A stretch of 46,631 nt of DNA from an uncultured Clostridia bacterium (GTDB lineage Bacteria > Bacillota > Clostridia > Christensenellales > Borkfalkiaceae), in NCBI GenBank assembly GCA_944337235.1, contig CALVLK010000011.1, forward strand, positions 1 to 46,631, in the 5' to 3' direction. Shown here one piece after another: positions 12,028 through 21,231 of this stretch. The notes beneath the pieces were generated by a model. The model searched no databases and was not told where the DNA came from. It saw only the letters and a list, made by a program, of their open reading frames with translations. The stretch's first letter is position 1; each line of letters opens with the position of its first letter. Both the position numbers and the translations under genes were made by a program.

Positions 12028-13605
12028 ATGTTACAGGTCAACCACGTCAGTTTACAATTTGGCAGCAAAAAGCTGTTCGAGGACGTCAACCTCAAATTTA
12101 CAAACGGAAATTGCTACGGCATCATCGGTGCAAACGGCGCCGGAAAGAGCACGTTTTTAAAGGTGCTCTCGGGTGAGATCGAGCCAAACAAGGGCGACGT
12201 CTCGCTCGGCAAGAACGAGCGCATGTCCGTGCTTGCACAAAATCAGAACAAATTCGACTCCGAGACGGTGCGCCGCACCGTCATGCTCGGGCACAAGCGC
12301 CTTGTCGACATCTTGGACGAGAAGGACGCGCTGTATGCGCATACGGAATTTACCGAGGAGGACGGCGTGCGCGCCTCGGAGCTGGAGAGCGAGTTCGCCG
12401 AACTCGGCGGTTGGGAGGCAGAGAGCGAGGCAGAGACGCTTCTGAACGAGCTTGATATCCCGCCCAAACTGCACGACAAGCGCATGGGCGAGCTCGATCC
12501 CAAGGAGAAGGTGCGCGTGCTTTTGGCGCAGGCGCTCTTCGGCAACCCCGACGTGCTGCTCCTGGACGAGCCGACCAACAACCTCGACTTGAAAACGGTG
12601 CGCTGGCTGGAAAATTATCTGCTCGACTTTGAAAATACCATCATCATCGTATCGCACAACCGGCACTTCCTGAACAAGGTGTGCACCCACATCTGCGATG
12701 TCGATTTCGGCAAGATCAACCTCTATCTGGGCAACTACGATTTCTGGTACCAGACCTCGCAGCTGCTTGCCCGTCAGCAGCGCGACGCCAACAAAAAGGC
12801 AGAGCAGCGCGCGCAGGAGCTCAAGGAGTTCATCGCACGCTTTGCGGCAAACGCGAGTAAGTCCCGCCAGGCAACGTCGCGGAAGAAGGAACTCGAAAAG
12901 CTCACCATCTCCGACTTTCAGCCCTCGCTGCGCAAATACCCCTTCATCGACTTCAAGTACGAGCGGGAGATCGGCAACGATATCCTCTCCGTCGAGGGGC
13001 TGAGCAAGGAGGGCTACTTCCAGGACGTCAGCTTTACCGTGCAGAAGGGAGATAAGATCGGCATCGTCGGGAACAAGTCCACGGCGATCACCATGCTCTA
13101 CGAGATCCTCACGGGCAGGCAGCAGCCGGACGAGGGGACGATCAAGTGGGGCAAGACCATCTCCTATTCCTATTTCCCCACCAACAACAGCGAGTATTTC
13201 GACGGCTGCGATCTCACGCTGGTGCAGTGGCTTTCGCAGTTCTCCAAGGATCATTACGAAGAATACCTGCGCGGATGGCTGGGCAGGATGCTGTTCTCGG
13301 GCGAAGAGGCGCTTAAGAGCGCAAAGGTGCTCTCCGGCGGTGAAAAGGTACGCTGCATGCTCGCCAAAATGATGCTCGAGGGCGGGAACTTCCTCATCTT
13401 CGACGAGCCGACCAACCACCTCGATCTGGAATCGATCACCGCACTCAACAACGGGCTCACGGCATTCAAGGGCTGTATGCTGCTCACTTCGCACGATCAG
13501 GAACTCATGAATACGGCGTGCAACCGCATCATCGTCATCAACTACACGAAGGAGTACGACAAGCGCATCACCTTCGATGAGTATATCGACAGCGTCAACG
13601 GCTGA
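12028..13605 (+). CDS. ABC-F ATPase, YbiT/YkpA type, with one degenerate ATP site
   Basis: Soluble tandem-ATPase protein of the ABC-F class, which acts on ribosomes; 525 residues. NBD1 has an intact Walker A (GANGAGKST, about residues 35-43) and Walker B (LLLDEPTNNLD). Its signature reads LDPKEK where LSGGEK is expected. NBD2 has an intact signature (LSGGEKVRC) and Walker B (LIFDEPTNHLD), but its Walker A reads GIVGNKSTAITML. Aligned with remembered YkpA-type sequences (VGxNELAKTTL), the lysine position is Ile. Both defects fall in the same composite site. The start has a GGAAGGAG site. It is the last gene of the lgt operon, before a strong terminator. Confidence 0.9.
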   Translation: MLQVNHVSLQFGSKKLFEDVNLKFTNGNCYGIIGANGAGKSTFLKVLSGEIEPNKGDVSLGKNERMSVLAQNQNKFDSETVRRTVMLGHKRLVDILDEKDALYAHTEFTEEDGVRASELESEFAELGGWEAESEAETLLNELDIPPKLHDKRMGELDPKEKVRVLLAQALFGNPDVLLLDEPTNNLDLKTVRWLENYLLDFENTIIIVSHNRHFLNKVCTHICDVDFGKINLYLGNYDFWYQTSQLLARQQRDANKKAEQRAQELKEFIARFAANASKSRQATSRKKELEKLTISDFQPSLRKYPFIDFKYEREIGNDILSVEGLSKEGYFQDVSFTVQKGDKIGIVGNKSTAITMLYEILTGRQQPDEGTIKWGKTISYSYFPTNNSEYFDGCDLTLVQWLSQFSKDHYEEYLRGWLGRMLFSGEEALKSAKVLSGGEKVRCMLAKMMLEGGNFLIFDEPTNHLDLESITALNNGLTAFKGCMLLTSHDQELMNTACNRIIVINYTKEYDKRITFDEYIDSVNG

Positions 13606-13615
13606 AGGCATACGC

Positions 13616-13649
13616 GGCGCGGCCCAGAACAGGGCCGCGCCTCTTTTTT
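13616..13649 (+). terminator. terminator of the lgt-abcF operon
   Basis: Perfect 10-bp stem GGCGCGGCCC / GGGCCGCGCC (13616-13625 with 13632-13641), six-base loop, then CT and six T. Confidence 0.95.
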
Positions 13650-13677
13650 GACAAGCTTCCCGATTTATTTTCATAAT
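13648..13677 (+). promoter_or_regulatory. possible distal promoter of the spo0A-like gene
   Basis: TTGACA at 13648-13653 and CATAAT at 13672-13677 with 18-bp spacing. It overlaps the T-run of the preceding terminator. Confidence 0.45.
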
Positions 13678-13685
13678 TCGACGAA
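13677..13685. promoter_or_regulatory. possible 0A box
   Basis: TTCGACGAA matches the Spo0A box (TTYGACAAA in this orientation) at 8 of 9 positions. It lies between the two candidate promoters of the Spo0A homologue, suggesting autoregulation. Confidence 0.4.
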
Positions 13686-13723
13686 ATATGAAAAAAATTC
13701 GGATATTTATTTACAAAAATAGC

Positions 13724-13752
13724 TTTACATTTACAAAATTTTGATTTATAAT
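13724..13752 (+). promoter_or_regulatory. proximal promoter of the spo0A-like gene
   Basis: TTTACA at 13724-13729 and TATAAT at 13747-13752 with a 17-bp spacer. TTTACA occurs three times between 13709 and 13737. Confidence 0.75.
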
Positions 13753-13783
13753 GGGAGAAAATTCAGAAAAGGGAGTACCCATT

Positions 13784-14539
13784 ATGAAACAAGTTGAAAT
13801 TCTCATACTCGAGAGCAACGATGCCTTTGTACGGGAGCTGAAGGATCAGCTGGGATCACGGGAAGAGTTTCACATCTGCGGCGTGTCGGGGGATGGCAAA
13901 GAGGGGCTGGAATTATTGCGCAGCTGCAATCCCGGCGTCGTCATTTTAAGTCTGTTACTGAAGAATCTCGACGGGCTGACCGTACTCGAAACGGCACACC
14001 GCGAAGAGTGTAAGGCAGAGTTTATCGTGATGGGAAATTTCGCAGACGACAAGATCATCAACCGCGCCATCGAGCTTGGGGCACGGTATTATCTGATGAA
14101 GCCTGTCAGTGCGTCCGTCGTGGCGGACCGTGCGGCAGAGCTTGTCGAGCCTTCGCCCGTCCGCGAGGCGGTGGAGCGCCGCCGCGCCGGCTCTATGGAC
14201 GAGCGCATCAGCAATATCTTCATCTCCATCGGCATCCCGCCGCATATCAAGGGGTATGCCTATCTTCGCGAGGCGATCAAGATGGCGGTCAACGATCCGC
14301 ACGTCATCAACAACGTGACCAAGGGGCTCTATCCCGTCATCGGCGAGACCTTTCAGACGACGGCGAGCAAGGTGGAGCGCGCCATCCGCCACGCCATTGA
14401 GGTGGCGTGGAACCGCGGCAGGACGGACGCCGTCAACGCCATCTTCGGCGCGAGGGTATATATCGGCTCCGAAAAGCCCACCAACAGCGAATTTATCGCG
14501 CTCGTCGCCGATAAGCTCATCCTTGAAAACATGGGCTGA
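13784..14539 (+). CDS. spo0A: Spo0A homologue with a degenerate receiver domain
   Basis: Response-regulator-type transcription factor, 251 residues. The C-terminal part (about 145-251) is a clear Spo0A DNA-binding domain: IGIPPHIKGYAYLREAI, TTASKVERAIRHAIEVAW and KPTNSEFIALVADKL. The receiver aligns without gaps to B. subtilis Spo0A, but key residues are changed. Asp10-Asp11 become Glu10-Ser11, the phosphoacceptor Asp56 becomes Ser56 (VILSLLLKNLDG), and Thr84 becomes Gly84. Lys106 is kept. By sequence it cannot be phosphorylated at the usual site. The start at 13784 has GGGAG upstream; an in-frame ATG at 13751 overlaps the promoter. No spo0IVB-like gene precedes it. Confidence 0.9.
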   Translation: MKQVEILILESNDAFVRELKDQLGSREEFHICGVSGDGKEGLELLRSCNPGVVILSLLLKNLDGLTVLETAHREECKAEFIVMGNFADDKIINRAIELGARYYLMKPVSASVVADRAAELVEPSPVREAVERRRAGSMDERISNIFISIGIPPHIKGYAYLREAIKMAVNDPHVINNVTKGLYPVIGETFQTTASKVERAIRHAIEVAWNRGRTDAVNAIFGARVYIGSEKPTNSEFIALVADKLILENMG

Positions 14540-16547: not shown

Positions 16548-18770
16548 ATGATGAAACGATGGTTATCCGCAGGACTTGCAGGGATCATGCTCACGTCGGT
16601 CGCCGTGTGTGCGGGCGGATGCATGCCCTCCGACGTGGACATGCAGGGCAACACCTTCTCCGATGCCGACGTCACGCTGACGGCGGACGCCGCGCAGGTC
16701 GTCGATATCTCCGACACGCTGTTCGGCGTGTTCTTGGAGGACATCAATTATGCGTCCTACGCCATGGACGACAATCTGCTCTGCAACGGCTCGTTTGAAT
16801 TTTCCGACGCGACGCGCGCATGGAGCGCAACAGACGCCGCGATCACGGGGGAGAATGCCGAACCCGTCATCTCGACCAGTCTCAACTATCTGCGCGTCGA
16901 CGCCGAAGCGTCGGGCGCAACGCTCTCCAACAGCGGATTTGCGGCGGTACCCATCGCCGTGACCGAGGGGGCAAGCTATACCTTCTCCGCCTTTATCAAG
17001 GCGACCGCCTATAACGGGGAGATCGGGCTGCGCCTTTCTTACGCCAATGGGATCGTGGCGGAGGGGAGCATTACGGTGAGCGAAAGTACGGAATGGGTCA
17101 AATATCAGACCACGCTGACCGCGTCGGAGACGAGGTCGAACCTCTCCTTCGAGCTGGTGTTCAGCGGGGCGGGCGAATTGTACCTCGACGGCGTCTCGCT
17201 TGTCACCTCCGAGGCGACGGACGGCATCAAGAATTATATGTACGAGGTGATCGAGGAGCTCTCGCCCAAGTTTGTGCGCTTCCCGGGCGGCTGCGTCATC
17301 GAGGGAAGAACGATGGACGACGCATATGACTGGAAGAACTCCATCGGCGTCAACGAGGCGGACGAGGTGCCCGAATTTACCTATACGTGCAATGTGGACG
17401 GTGCGGTGACGACGGTGACCACGCGCGGCGAACCCATAACGCGCAAGCCGAATACGGACATCTGGCAGAACGGCAGCAACTACTATCTCATGGAATACGG
17501 CGTGGGCTTCTACGAATATTTCCTGCTCTGTGAAAATCTGGGCGCAAGCGCGATCCCCATCGTCAACTGCGGGCTCAGCTGCATGATTCAGACGGCGGGC
17601 GGCGGGCGTTTTAACCGCCTGGAGGGCCGCTACGGCAACGGGATCGAAGATTATATTCAGGACGCCCTTGATCTTGTCGCATTTGCGAAGGGAGATGTAA
17701 ACTCTACCGACGAAAACGAGGCGTACTGGGCGCAGGTGCGTGCGGATATGGGGCACGAGGAACCTTTCGACATGACCTATCTCGGCATCGGCAACGAACA
17801 GTGGGGCGATACCTATTACGACTACTACGAGCAGTTTATCGAGGCGTTCCGCGAGGCAGAGCAATCCAATCCCGATCTCTATGAGGGCATCGAGCTCATC
17901 GTAGGCAACGGAACCTCCTTCAACGATATCGAAAGGTCTGGCACGGGCGGTCTGGCGCGCACCGCGGCGAGAAGCTATATGGACGGCGGCAACATCTCCT
18001 CCCTCAAAGAGTACGGCGTGCAGGATCATCACTACTACATGAACTATGCCGACTTTTTCATGAACACCACGGTGTACGACGGCTATCGGCGGGAGGGGGA
18101 ACTTGCTTACGACGTGTTTGTGGGCGAATACTCCGCCAATCAGGCAAACTCCCTGAGCGGCTATACCTTTGCCTACGAGGATAACAACTGGATAACCGCG
18201 CTCTCCGAGGCGGCATATATGACGGGCATCGAGCGCAACGGCGACATTATCAAACTTGCGGCGTATGCGCCCATGTTCGGCGCGCTGAATGCGACCAACC
18301 AGTGGACGGCGGATATGATGTTCTTCACTTCCACGAGCGTGGTGCGTACGCCCAACTACTATGTGCAGCAGCTGTTCATGCGCAACCAGAGCTCCGGGGT
18401 GCTTGCCACGGAGGCCACGTACGCTGACGCCTTTGAGCGCACTTACGACCTTGTTCCTGTCGGCGGAATCGGCTCTGTTTCCATCAATAAGATGTATCAG
18501 GTCATCGGCGTCGACGGGGCGACGGGGGATGTCATCGTCAAGCTCGTCAACGCCTCTTCGGACTATATTAAAGCAAACGTCGAGCTCAGTTCCGTCAGTG
18601 TGACGGGGTATGCCGACGTCACGCTGCTCTCCTGCGAGAATACGGCGGCGAAGAACTCCGCAAGCGAGGAAAACATCGCGCCCGAGTATTTTACGCTGGG
18701 TGTCAAGAGCACATTCGGTTACGAGATCCCGCCCTACAGCGTTGCGGTCATCCGCGTGCATACAAAATAA
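16548..18770 (+). CDS. GH51-like alpha-L-arabinofuranosidase lipoprotein, paralogue 1
   Basis: Predicted cell-surface glycosidase releasing arabinose from arabinan or arabinoxylan; 740 residues. A lipoprotein signal ends AGGC at Cys25. The N-terminal GH51 pattern DTLFGVFLEDINYAS is followed by a CBM4-like beta-rich insert (about 75-220). KFVRFPGGCVIEG and DWKNSIG mark the start of the barrel. The predicted acid/base is Glu417 (GIGNEQWG) and the nucleophile Glu527 (FVGEYSAN); both fit the family. The start at 16548 is chosen for the GGGGGA ribosome binding site and the signal peptide; Met at 16551 is equivalent. A paralogue follows directly. Substrate is inferred from the family only. Confidence 0.88.
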   Translation: MMKRWLSAGLAGIMLTSVAVCAGGCMPSDVDMQGNTFSDADVTLTADAAQVVDISDTLFGVFLEDINYASYAMDDNLLCNGSFEFSDATRAWSATDAAITGENAEPVISTSLNYLRVDAEASGATLSNSGFAAVPIAVTEGASYTFSAFIKATAYNGEIGLRLSYANGIVAEGSITVSESTEWVKYQTTLTASETRSNLSFELVFSGAGELYLDGVSLVTSEATDGIKNYMYEVIEELSPKFVRFPGGCVIEGRTMDDAYDWKNSIGVNEADEVPEFTYTCNVDGAVTTVTTRGEPITRKPNTDIWQNGSNYYLMEYGVGFYEYFLLCENLGASAIPIVNCGLSCMIQTAGGGRFNRLEGRYGNGIEDYIQDALDLVAFAKGDVNSTDENEAYWAQVRADMGHEEPFDMTYLGIGNEQWGDTYYDYYEQFIEAFREAEQSNPDLYEGIELIVGNGTSFNDIERSGTGGLARTAARSYMDGGNISSLKEYGVQDHHYYMNYADFFMNTTVYDGYRREGELAYDVFVGEYSANQANSLSGYTFAYEDNNWITALSEAAYMTGIERNGDIIKLAAYAPMFGALNATNQWTADMMFFTSTSVVRTPNYYVQQLFMRNQSSGVLATEATYADAFERTYDLVPVGGIGSVSINKMYQVIGVDGATGDVIVKLVNASSDYIKANVELSSVSVTGYADVTLLSCENTAAKNSASEENIAPEYFTLGVKSTFGYEIPPYSVAVIRVHTK

Positions 18771-18936: not shown

Positions 18937-21231
18937 ATGAAAAAGGTCACACTTGTCGCGCTTTCGTCTGCGCTTGTCGCCGCATTTGTCTGCGGCGCGA
19001 GTTCATGCACGAGGATCGACTACGAGGCGACGGCGTTTTCCGATCCGACGGCGACGCTCTCTGTCGATCTCACGGGGGTAAAGGTGGGCATCTCCGATAC
19101 GCTGTTCGGCGTGTTTCTGGAGGACATCAACTATGCCTCATATGCGCTCGACGACAATATGCTCGTCAACAACTCCTTCGAGGCGACGCAGGGCGTCTCC
19201 AGAACGTACGGCTGGGAGACGACGAACGCCACGCTCGCCATCGAAAACACCGACGGCGTGCTCGCGGACGTGGAGGGCTATCGCGATTCCGGGGTCAACA
19301 CCTATTACGGGTGTCTCACGGTAAACGCCGCGGGCGGCACCCTCACCAACACGGGTTATGACGCTGTTCCCATGGCGGTCACGGACGGGACGGATTATGT
19401 GTTCAGCGCATTTATCAAGACGAATACCGCCATGGATATGACCGTGTCCGTCTCAAACCGCGACGGCGAGGTGCTCAGCGAGAGCATCCGCCTGGAGCAG
19501 GGCGACGAATGGGTGAAATATACGCGCACGATCGAGGCAAGCGGAACGGCATCGAATTCTCTGGCGTGCAACCTCAGCTTTTCTGCGCCCGGCACGGTGT
19601 ATCTCGACGCGATCACGCTCGAGACGACAAATTCCACGGGCGGAATCAAACAGTATATGTACGACGCGATCGCAGACCTCGCGCCCAAGTTTATCCGCTT
19701 CCCGGGCGGCTGCATCGTCGAGGGCAACGGCTATTTCAACCGCGACGGGGAATCTGGACTGGACGACACCGCTTACGACTGGAAAAACTCCATCGGCGCG
19801 GCGGTCACGGCGGACGGCGACGATATCGTGCCGGCGTTCAGCTATCGGTTGAATACGGAGAACGGAAAGACGGAGGAGAGCGGCGCGACCTATGGCGAGC
19901 CTTCCACGAGAAAGCCCAACCGCGATCTCTGGGGCGGCACCAACCTGAACACCTATTACGATATGGAGTACGGCGTGGGCTTCTATGAGTACTTTGTGCT
20001 CTGCGACAATTTGGGCGCAAGCGCCATCCCCGTGCTCAACTGCGGCTACAGCTGCCAGGGCGGCGGCGCAAGCAATCCCCGTCTGCTCGTAGGGCGGCAC
20101 GGAAAGGGCGTGGAGGACTTCATTCAGGACGCGCTCGATCTTGTCGCATTTGCGAAGGGTGACGTCAACTCCTCCGACGCAAACGAGGCATACTGGGCGG
20201 GCGTGCGCGCCAACATGGGGCACGAGGAGCCCTTTGAAATGGAATACCTCGGCATCGGCAACGAGCAGTGGGGCGCCACCTATTACGGCCTGTATCAGCA
20301 GTTCATCGAGGCGTTCAACGAGGCGAAACAGTCCAATCCCGACCTCTACGGCGACATTCAGCTCATCGTGGGCAACGGCACGCAGCTAAGCGACTGCGAG
20401 GGCTATGCTGGCGGCACGGGCGGCACGGCAAAGAATGCGGCGCTCGCCTATATGAACCAGGGCAAGATCTCTTCGCTGCAGGAATACGGCCTGCACGACC
20501 ACCACTATTACCGCAACTATACCGAGTTCTTCGAGCTCTCCACGCTGTACGACGGCTATACACGCGGAACGGAGCGCGAATATCACGTCTTTGTGGGCGA
20601 GTTTTCCGCCAACTCCGAAACGCGCCAGAACGGCATTCCCTGCGTGCAGACGAACAACAGCTGGCTGACGGCGCTCTCGGAAGCGGCCTATATGACGGGC
20701 CTGGAGCGCAACGGCGATATCGTGGAGCTCGCGGCGTACGCGCCCATGTTCGGGGCGTCTGCCTATGCCAATCAGTGGGCGGCGGATATGATGTACTATT
20801 CCAATACGGCGCTCTCCTTCACGCCCAACTACTATGTGCAGCAGCTGTTCATGCGCAATCAGGGGAACGATTGGCTGGAGCACGAGATCACGGTGCGCGA
20901 CGGGTTTGAAACGCAGTTCGAGTCGGCGGGATATATGCTGGACAAGCTGTACAGCAGCGTGTGCATCGAGGATGAGACGGGCGACGTCATCATCAAGATC
21001 GTCAATGCGTCGGAAGAGGCGGTAGATTTCAACGTGGCGCTCTCCACGGGCTCCATGTCGCTCACCGGCGTGGCGGACCTCACGGTATTGCAGTGCGACA
21101 ATCTGCGCGCGACCAGCACGATCGGCGCGCCCGCCGTCACGCCGCAGACCGCGCGCATCGGCGTCGAGAACACCTTCGGCTATACAGCGGAGGGCTACAG
21201 CGTGGCTGTCATCCGCGTGCACGTCAAGTGA
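18937..21231 (+). CDS. GH51-like alpha-L-arabinofuranosidase lipoprotein, paralogue 2
   Basis: Tandem paralogue of the preceding gene, 764 residues, with the same architecture. A lipoprotein signal ends at Cys24 (ASSC), followed by DTLFGVFLEDINYAS, a CBM4-like insert, KFIRFPGGCIVEG, and the catalytic pair Glu443 (GIGNEQWG) and Glu555 (FVGEFSAN). Differences concentrate in the beta-rich insert and near the active-site loops, for example an extra NGYFNRDGESG after the GGCIVEG motif. This suggests related but distinct substrates. It has its own promoter and an AAGGGGGAAAG ribosome binding site, so the two copies can be regulated separately. Confidence 0.88.
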   Translation: MKKVTLVALSSALVAAFVCGASSCTRIDYEATAFSDPTATLSVDLTGVKVGISDTLFGVFLEDINYASYALDDNMLVNNSFEATQGVSRTYGWETTNATLAIENTDGVLADVEGYRDSGVNTYYGCLTVNAAGGTLTNTGYDAVPMAVTDGTDYVFSAFIKTNTAMDMTVSVSNRDGEVLSESIRLEQGDEWVKYTRTIEASGTASNSLACNLSFSAPGTVYLDAITLETTNSTGGIKQYMYDAIADLAPKFIRFPGGCIVEGNGYFNRDGESGLDDTAYDWKNSIGAAVTADGDDIVPAFSYRLNTENGKTEESGATYGEPSTRKPNRDLWGGTNLNTYYDMEYGVGFYEYFVLCDNLGASAIPVLNCGYSCQGGGASNPRLLVGRHGKGVEDFIQDALDLVAFAKGDVNSSDANEAYWAGVRANMGHEEPFEMEYLGIGNEQWGATYYGLYQQFIEAFNEAKQSNPDLYGDIQLIVGNGTQLSDCEGYAGGTGGTAKNAALAYMNQGKISSLQEYGLHDHHYYRNYTEFFELSTLYDGYTRGTEREYHVFVGEFSANSETRQNGIPCVQTNNSWLTALSEAAYMTGLERNGDIVELAAYAPMFGASAYANQWAADMMYYSNTALSFTPNYYVQQLFMRNQGNDWLEHEITVRDGFETQFESAGYMLDKLYSSVCIEDETGDVIIKIVNASEEAVDFNVALSTGSMSLTGVADLTVLQCDNLRATSTIGAPAVTPQTARIGVENTFGYTAEGYSVAVIRVHVK

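Follow-up and report, generated by a model that had tools for sequence, protein, structure and literature searches.

We found that Spo0A, the master regulator of sporulation, lacks the phosphate-accepting aspartate of its receiver domain in an uncultured Clostridia bacterium and across most of its family, the Borkfalkiaceae. The gene lies in a stretch of 46,631 nucleotides that was analysed as a whole (hereafter the window), and its product is an orthologue of canonical Spo0A with an aspartate-less pseudo-receiver, as judged from profile matches and a predicted fold. Since the phosphate site is lost while the DNA-binding half and a number of spore genes are kept, sporulation in Borkfalkiaceae is probably controlled by means other than Spo0A phosphorylation. 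The accepted trigger of sporulation is the phosphorylation of Spo0A, and the debate in the accessible part of one account concerns which kinases and phosphatases act, not the existence of the acceptor (PMC11210211). Loss of the acceptor with the sporulation genes and sites kept would be a natural test of the need for phosphorylation, and the presence of spo0A in gut genomes does not imply the known trigger.

The window protein matches the Pfam families Response_reg (51 bits) and Spo0A_C (PF08769; 136 bits against a threshold of 25), and it scores 244 bits with the NCBIfam model TIGR02875 spore_0_A, which has a curated cut-off of 200. A longer alternative frame begins at an ATG at 13751, which overlaps the -10 box of the promoter, so that 13784 is the likely start (Table 1). 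Read directly from the window Spo0A, the five signature residues are E10, S11, S56, G84 and K106. The acceptor Asp56 is thus a Ser, the acidic pair at positions 10 and 11 has become Glu-Ser, the strand-4 Thr/Ser is a Gly, and the conserved Lys is present. These are the changes that the first-pass annotation had listed as D10E, D11S, D56S and T84G with K106 kept, and the list holds. Its description of the alignment as gap-free does not, since the window receiver has two residues fewer before strand 4 than the Spo0A receiver 9phz; G84 and K106 therefore correspond to T86 and K108 of 9phz, as counted by hand on the printed alignment. Likewise, the DNA-binding domain that it called fully conserved is strongly conserved, with 57–59% identity to the 1lq1 chains. 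In receivers, the Asp acceptor, a metal-binding acid and the Thr/Ser are needed to form and read the Asp-phosphate. The window Spo0A has lost all three: there is no Asp56, position 11 no longer has its metal-binding acid, and position 84 has lost its Thr/Ser. The usual Asp-phosphate would therefore be neither formed nor read, and phosphorylation of Asp56 itself is excluded because the residue is absent.

Table 1. Features at the spo0A locus, in window coordinates.
Feature	Position	Strand	Remarks
spo0A	13784..14539	+	251 aa; single Spo0A_C gene found in the genome (profile search)
Receiver domain, residues 1-122	13784..14149	+	Pfam Response_reg; residues E10 S11 S56 G84 K106
Spo0A DNA-binding domain, residues 137-249	14192..14530	+	Pfam Spo0A_C
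Sigma-A type promoter TTTACA-N17-TATAAT	13724..13752	+	consensus match
Operator-like repeat 1	13663..13678	+	genus consensus AATTTTGTACAAAAAT; window copy diverged
Operator-like repeat 2	13684..13699	+	genus consensus AATTTTGTACAAAAAT; window copy diverged
Operator-like repeat 3	13705..13720	+	adjoins the -35 hexamer
0A-box-like TTCGTCGAA	13677..13685	-	one mismatch to TGTCGAA

The Spo0A_C domain occurs in 54/61 genomes of the genus, 141/151 of the family, 181/198 of the order and 131/156 of the class. Receiver residues were read in the fetched loci, after removal of repeats and of rows whose first 120 columns held over 15 gaps. The genus set includes the loci L051-L127 with at least 64% identity, three others (L128-L130, 57–59%) being kept separate, and its alignment has 129 rows and 80 distinct receivers, the window included. 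E10, G84 and K106 are found in all 80, S11 in 74 and S56 in 78, the two exceptions at position 56 being one N and one D. Hence Ser56 is no isolated error, a possibility that the first-pass annotation had left to a comparison with relatives, and the recurrence of the E-S-S-G-K signature across the genus is more than chance. The one genus Spo0A with Asp56 (L092:2520-3278) has the same E10, S11 and G84 as the rest of the genus and may be a reversion or chance.

Elsewhere in the family, D56 is missing in 40 of 46 distinct receivers (G in 16, E in 9, S in 7, N in 7, A in 1 and D in 6). Each of the six with Asp56 lacks at least one of the acidic pair, the Ser/Thr and the Lys, and the complete D/E-D-D-S/T-K set is found in none of the 46. 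The rest of the order has D56 in 60 and E56 in 7 of 67 receivers (67 of 69 rows). Among 90 distinct class loci, a non-random sample of the 30 best-scoring and 60 hand-picked ones, position 56 is D in 83, E in 6 and S in 1, and D56 is kept in 82/85 when five order loci are removed. At the second residue after the Lys (K+2), V or I is found in all 79 dead receivers of the genus; Phe is found there in 58/82 class and 29/60 order receivers with D56, and in 24/41 dead receivers of other family genera. In the accessible part of a review of pseudo-receivers, V, I, L and A at K+2 are linked to active conformations (PMC12632262).

A 174-row tree of Spo0A alone was built by a quick method with the five signature columns omitted, its rows, including 21 genus and 35 class rows, being chosen partly at random. 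The genus forms one branch (support 99) and the family together with the genus another (support 98), in agreement with common descent of the window gene as a Spo0A orthologue. This branching fits an old receiver loss in the family followed by inheritance, and the window Spo0A is apparently vertically inherited. The D/not-D label at position 56 changes 11 times on the tree, where long branches are flagged. Elsewhere in the order, the rows with Glu56 look like additional losses, and some of these fall close to the family at weak support.

Purifying selection, conserved columns and an intact predicted fold show that the receiver is not just in decay. Genus pairs with a receiver dS of 0.1–1 (225, not independent of one another) have a median omega of 0.29 in the receiver and 0.074 in the DNA-binding domain. 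Columns conserved to at least 95% among 81 genus sequences number 41/125 in the receiver and 87/115 in the DNA-binding domain, and mean identity within the genus is 63% and 90%, respectively. A pseudogene or an assembly error is ruled out by the genus-wide signature together with this selection. The AlphaFold2 model, made from a 46-row alignment (mean pLDDT 86.5, pTM 0.51), shows a (beta-alpha)5 receiver with block means of 89–98 and a linker at residues 123-134 below 50 pLDDT. In Foldseek searches the predicted receiver matches the Spo0A receiver 5wq0 (TMt 0.86–0.89) and the DNA-binding domain matches Spo0A 1lq1/1fc3 (TMt 0.89–0.93), which make up its top three structural matches. The protein is thus predicted to fold as a receiver without the acceptor Asp joined to a Spo0A DNA-binding domain.

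The genome is a 1.405-Mb draft in 27 contigs, 89% complete with 0.5% contamination. Named genomes with close matches include those of Candidatus Gallimonas merdigallinarum, merdae, faecavium and caecicola; NCBI places Candidatus Gallimonas in Clostridia incertae sedis, and GTDB places this genus in Borkfalkiaceae, Christensenellales. A second spo0A was looked for, and one Spo0A_C domain was found in the genome, 11% of which may be missing; a single match is also the rule in the genus (53 of the 54 genomes that have Spo0A_C). With no second Spo0A_C found and with relatives lacking Asp56, the earlier statement that the phosphorelay could not act on this protein in the known way stands. Four receiver domains are found in the genome (E up to 0.01), Spo0A included. 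The other three are canonical, with the acidic pair, the Asp, the Ser/Thr and the Lys kept, and each adjoins a histidine kinase found by PF02518; none of the four is a stand-alone receiver of the Spo0F type. Six further HATPase matches were assigned by eye to GyrB, ParE, MutL, HtpG, SpoIIAB and a PP2C-RsbW fusion, the SpoIIAB assignment being confirmed by a curated model.

Additional Spo0A_C matches were seen in a few relatives. One genus member (L050, G019:C2) has a second, distant Spo0A_C-like regulator whose receiver looks intact. In the family genus g2, second matches in five genomes (G077, G092, G133, G152 and G157) are short frames of 120–139 aa, which could not hold both a receiver and a DNA-binding domain, and some full-length Spo0A proteins of g2 keep Asp56.

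Kinases were surveyed by HisKA in 24 hand-chosen genomes (12 of the family and 12 others), the place lists being read by eye. Of the 86 matches listed, 84 belong to a hybrid kinase or have a receiver no more than about 2 kb away, in the family genomes as well as in the others, and two are unclear (G064:C17, which is weak, and G282:C6, 3.5 kb away). The search for orphan kinases that the first-pass annotation had proposed thus yielded as good as none among the matches listed, and it turned out to be uninformative, since the same holds for the Asp56 relatives. The expectation that orphan kinases would be kept with Asp56 and lost with a dead receiver failed, and their lack is no evidence for our main reading.

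Another genome of the same order (G223, locus L239) measures 0.9 Mb at 100% completeness and has a Spo0A with Glu56, SpoIVA and three Spo0A_C matches. Among the matches listed for it, there is no HisKA and one receiver, presumably its own Spo0A. From these gene contents, G223 is apparently a separate and starker case than the window genus.

SpoIVA is present in 15/15 family genomes examined and in 168/198 order genomes. SpoIIAB reaches the threshold in 42/46 genus genomes and is strong in 41/46, the match in G007 being a weak one to a 721-aa frame. In the window genome, SpoIIAB and SigE score above their curated cut-offs, SigF and SigH are best matches that fall below the cut-off, and SpoIIGA, SpoVT and SpoVB are likewise below it. 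SigE, SpoIIGA, SpoVT, SpoVB and SigG come from about 0.8 Mb of sequence searched with few motifs, which is no census. SigG was found as an N-terminal frame of 134 residues (L425:5136-5540, in G000:C1) that ends where an opposite-strand gene, named glycosidase-like by eye, also ends; this may be a true loss or an assembly join. Two common adaptors were looked for near this fragment as a sign of contamination and were not found. The retention of SpoIVA, SpoIIAB-SigF, SigE-SpoIIGA and SpoVT in the window genome speaks against the earlier suggestion of a lineage that lost sporulation, although SigG is only a fragment. Published predictions point both ways. In the accessible part of PMC12536801, a predictor applied to one host set put its Borkfalkiaceae genomes in the non-sporulating class and counted only one of its 19 Christensenellales genomes, a Christensenellaceae, as spore-forming. 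PMC11536998, as far as its text is accessible, argues for sporulation potential and takes the presence of spo0A as its first criterion.

We also examined the region 5' of spo0A. Of the 80 distinct upstream regions of the genus, 78 have a promoter like that of the window, TTTAC[A/T]-N17/18-TATAAT-like and mostly 29–42 bp 5' of the start; the spacer is 17 bp in 77 of them and 18 bp in one. Three AATTTTGTACAAAAAT repeats at 21-bp steps recur in the genus 5' of this promoter, and the repeat resembles a 0A box with the central CG changed to AC. The window array scores z 7.3 (0/200 shuffles) with a model trained on the genus, window included. When held-out sequences were scored with the genus-trained model against 60 dinucleotide shuffles each, z exceeded 3 in 31/41 dead and 2/6 Asp56 receivers of the family, and in 7/59 Asp56 and 0/6 Glu56 receivers of the order. 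By these scores, the three-repeat array is a feature of the family. It is missing in 11/39 dead family receivers outside the genus and found in 2/6 with D56, and an ancestry-controlled test on independent pairs gave no coupling between the array and receiver loss (median p 1; five pairs, too few for 0.05). The array as a proven compensation for receiver loss was set aside on this flat test with its few pairs. Among seven genus genomes, the exact 15-mer repeat has six matches spread over five, and by coordinates all six lie at the spo0A promoter; the two genomes without a copy are the window's genome and G056. Eight sites have one mismatch, two of them at spo0A and six elsewhere without a common target by eye, which rules out the array as the mark of a wide regulon.

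In the genus, both the spo0A and the spoIIA promoters have more 0A boxes than shuffled sequences do. The 0A-box motif TGNCGAA is found 5' of spo0A in 62/80 genus members (mononucleotide-shuffle mean 5.9), 30/48 other family members (2.3) and 34/66 order members (4.1). Upstream of spoIIA it is found in 12/26 genus loci (shuffles 2.5), and GNCGAAAA, a pattern picked after viewing the sequences, in 23/26 (0.8); these counts cover 26 of 30 loci, and the shuffles ignore shared ancestry. In the window's own genome, the 0A boxes at the spo0A and spoIIA promoters are near-matches only, and strict TGNCGAA is absent from 13401-13900, the spo0A promoter region of the window.

We give an even chance to the explanation that this Spo0A, with its aspartate-less pseudo-receiver, needs no phosphate for its activity and is regulated through its amount. 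Most likely it would still bind 0A boxes, including those 5' of spoIIA and spo0A, and it would be active, probably as a dimer, without phosphate. The sporulation decision would then be shifted from phosphorylation to the amount of Spo0A made, which may be set by autoregulation at the 0A boxes and by the three-repeat array 5' of the sigma-A-like promoter. Control by amount is our first choice because of V or I at K+2 throughout the dead genus receivers, the gene-specific conserved array, and the review cases: in the accessible part of PMC12632262, a few constitutively active pseudo-receivers appear to be regulated by availability, on evidence that it calls sparse. The explanation is also supported by the signature shared across the genus, the purifying selection, the intact predicted fold, the 0A boxes at spo0A and spoIIA and the sporulation genes that are present. 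Against it, an Asp-to-Glu change alone is reported in the accessible part of PMC4395418 to be insufficient for constitutive activity of Spo0A, which bears on the Glu56 genera. Other points against it are the flat pairs test for the array, the want of an exact repeat in the window's genome and in G056, the one-mismatch 0A box of the window promoter, Phe at K+2 in many dead receivers of sister genera, the non-sporulating prediction of PMC12536801 and the genus member with Asp56. In a wider form, which we hold tentatively, the whole family would sporulate without Spo0A phosphorylation, the receiver would be a dimerisation and stability module, and spo0A transcription would decide through the operator array, read by Spo0A or by another regulator; the G223 lineage may have arrived at a comparable state on its own.

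The serious rival to control by amount is direct control of the pseudo-receiver, in which the signal would be a ligand, a change in redox state or pH, or a partner protein that favours or prevents dimerisation, with transcription in second place. The purifying selection on the receiver would suit this rival, as would S56-L57, G84-N85, Y102-Y103 and K106-P107-V108, all conserved in the genus, and such mechanisms are treated in the accessible part of the same review (PMC12632262). We nevertheless consider it rather unlikely. A conserved partner gene beside spo0A was not found in 44 genus loci of more than 12 kb (ABC-F upstream in 22/44, AspS downstream in 0/44), and position 56 differs by genus (S, G, E, N or A), which argues against one conserved ligand there. 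That the receiver and its pathway are relics in a lineage losing sporulation agrees with the predictor that put Borkfalkiaceae among the non-spore-formers of one host set (PMC12536801, in its accessible part), with the SigG fragment and with the several Spo proteins under their curated cut-offs. This is improbable in view of the universal SpoIVA of the family genomes examined, the strong SpoIIAB in most genus genomes, SigE and SpoIIAB above their curated cut-offs, SpoVT and SigF found, omega well under 1 in both domains and 0A-type boxes conserved at spoIIA.

Two further alternatives keep a covalent signal. The near-constant Ser56 of the genus would allow another mark to replace the Asp-phosphate, such as phosphorylation of Ser56 by a Ser/Thr kinase, but the sister genera mostly have Gly, Glu or Asn at this position (32/46), and we regard this as very improbable. 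Least credible of all is a transfer of phosphate from a histidine kinase to another receiver residue: the invariant Lys106 and the one genus member with Asp56 are in its favour, whereas positions 11 and 84 have also lost their acid and their Thr/Ser, and the three PF02518 histidine kinases each adjoin their own canonical regulator.

The window Spo0A can be compared with several known systems. Like canonical Spo0A (TIGR02875), it has two domains with matching folds, and the Spo0A tree places it within its own family; it differs in having no acceptor Asp, no acid at 11 and no Thr/Ser, so that switching through Asp56 is excluded. In Bacillus subtilis, sad67 and sof are phosphorelay-bypass alleles with which Spo0A is active without the normal phosphorelay, the sof alleles still using phosphate. 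Those are laboratory mutants, whereas the state described here is natural and fixed. Aspartate-less receivers such as ChxR and HP1043 likewise have a receiver fold without a phosphorylatable Asp on a DNA-binding output; in the present case, by contrast, the protein is the sporulation master regulator, and the state extends across most of a family. About 4% of receivers are aspartate-less, according to the accessible part of PMC4395418, where Spo0A figures only through Asp-to-Glu mutants and a reference, and the main text of PMC12632262 does not mention Spo0A. No description of a natural aspartate-less Spo0A was found in the open-licence literature searched. Aspartate-less receivers are a known class, and what the sequences add is a Spo0A that has naturally lost this Asp in most members of a family. 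The direct-phosphorylation Spo0 pathway of Clostridia, as described in the accessible parts of PMC11210211 and PMC6136694, likewise does without a Spo0F-type receiver, as the window genome does; that orphan-kinase pathway ends in phosphorylated Spo0A, whereas the window Spo0A has no acceptor.

Elsewhere in the window, 16551-18770 and 18937-21231 encode adjacent and similar secreted proteins, which by eye appear alpha-L-arabinofuranosidase-like.
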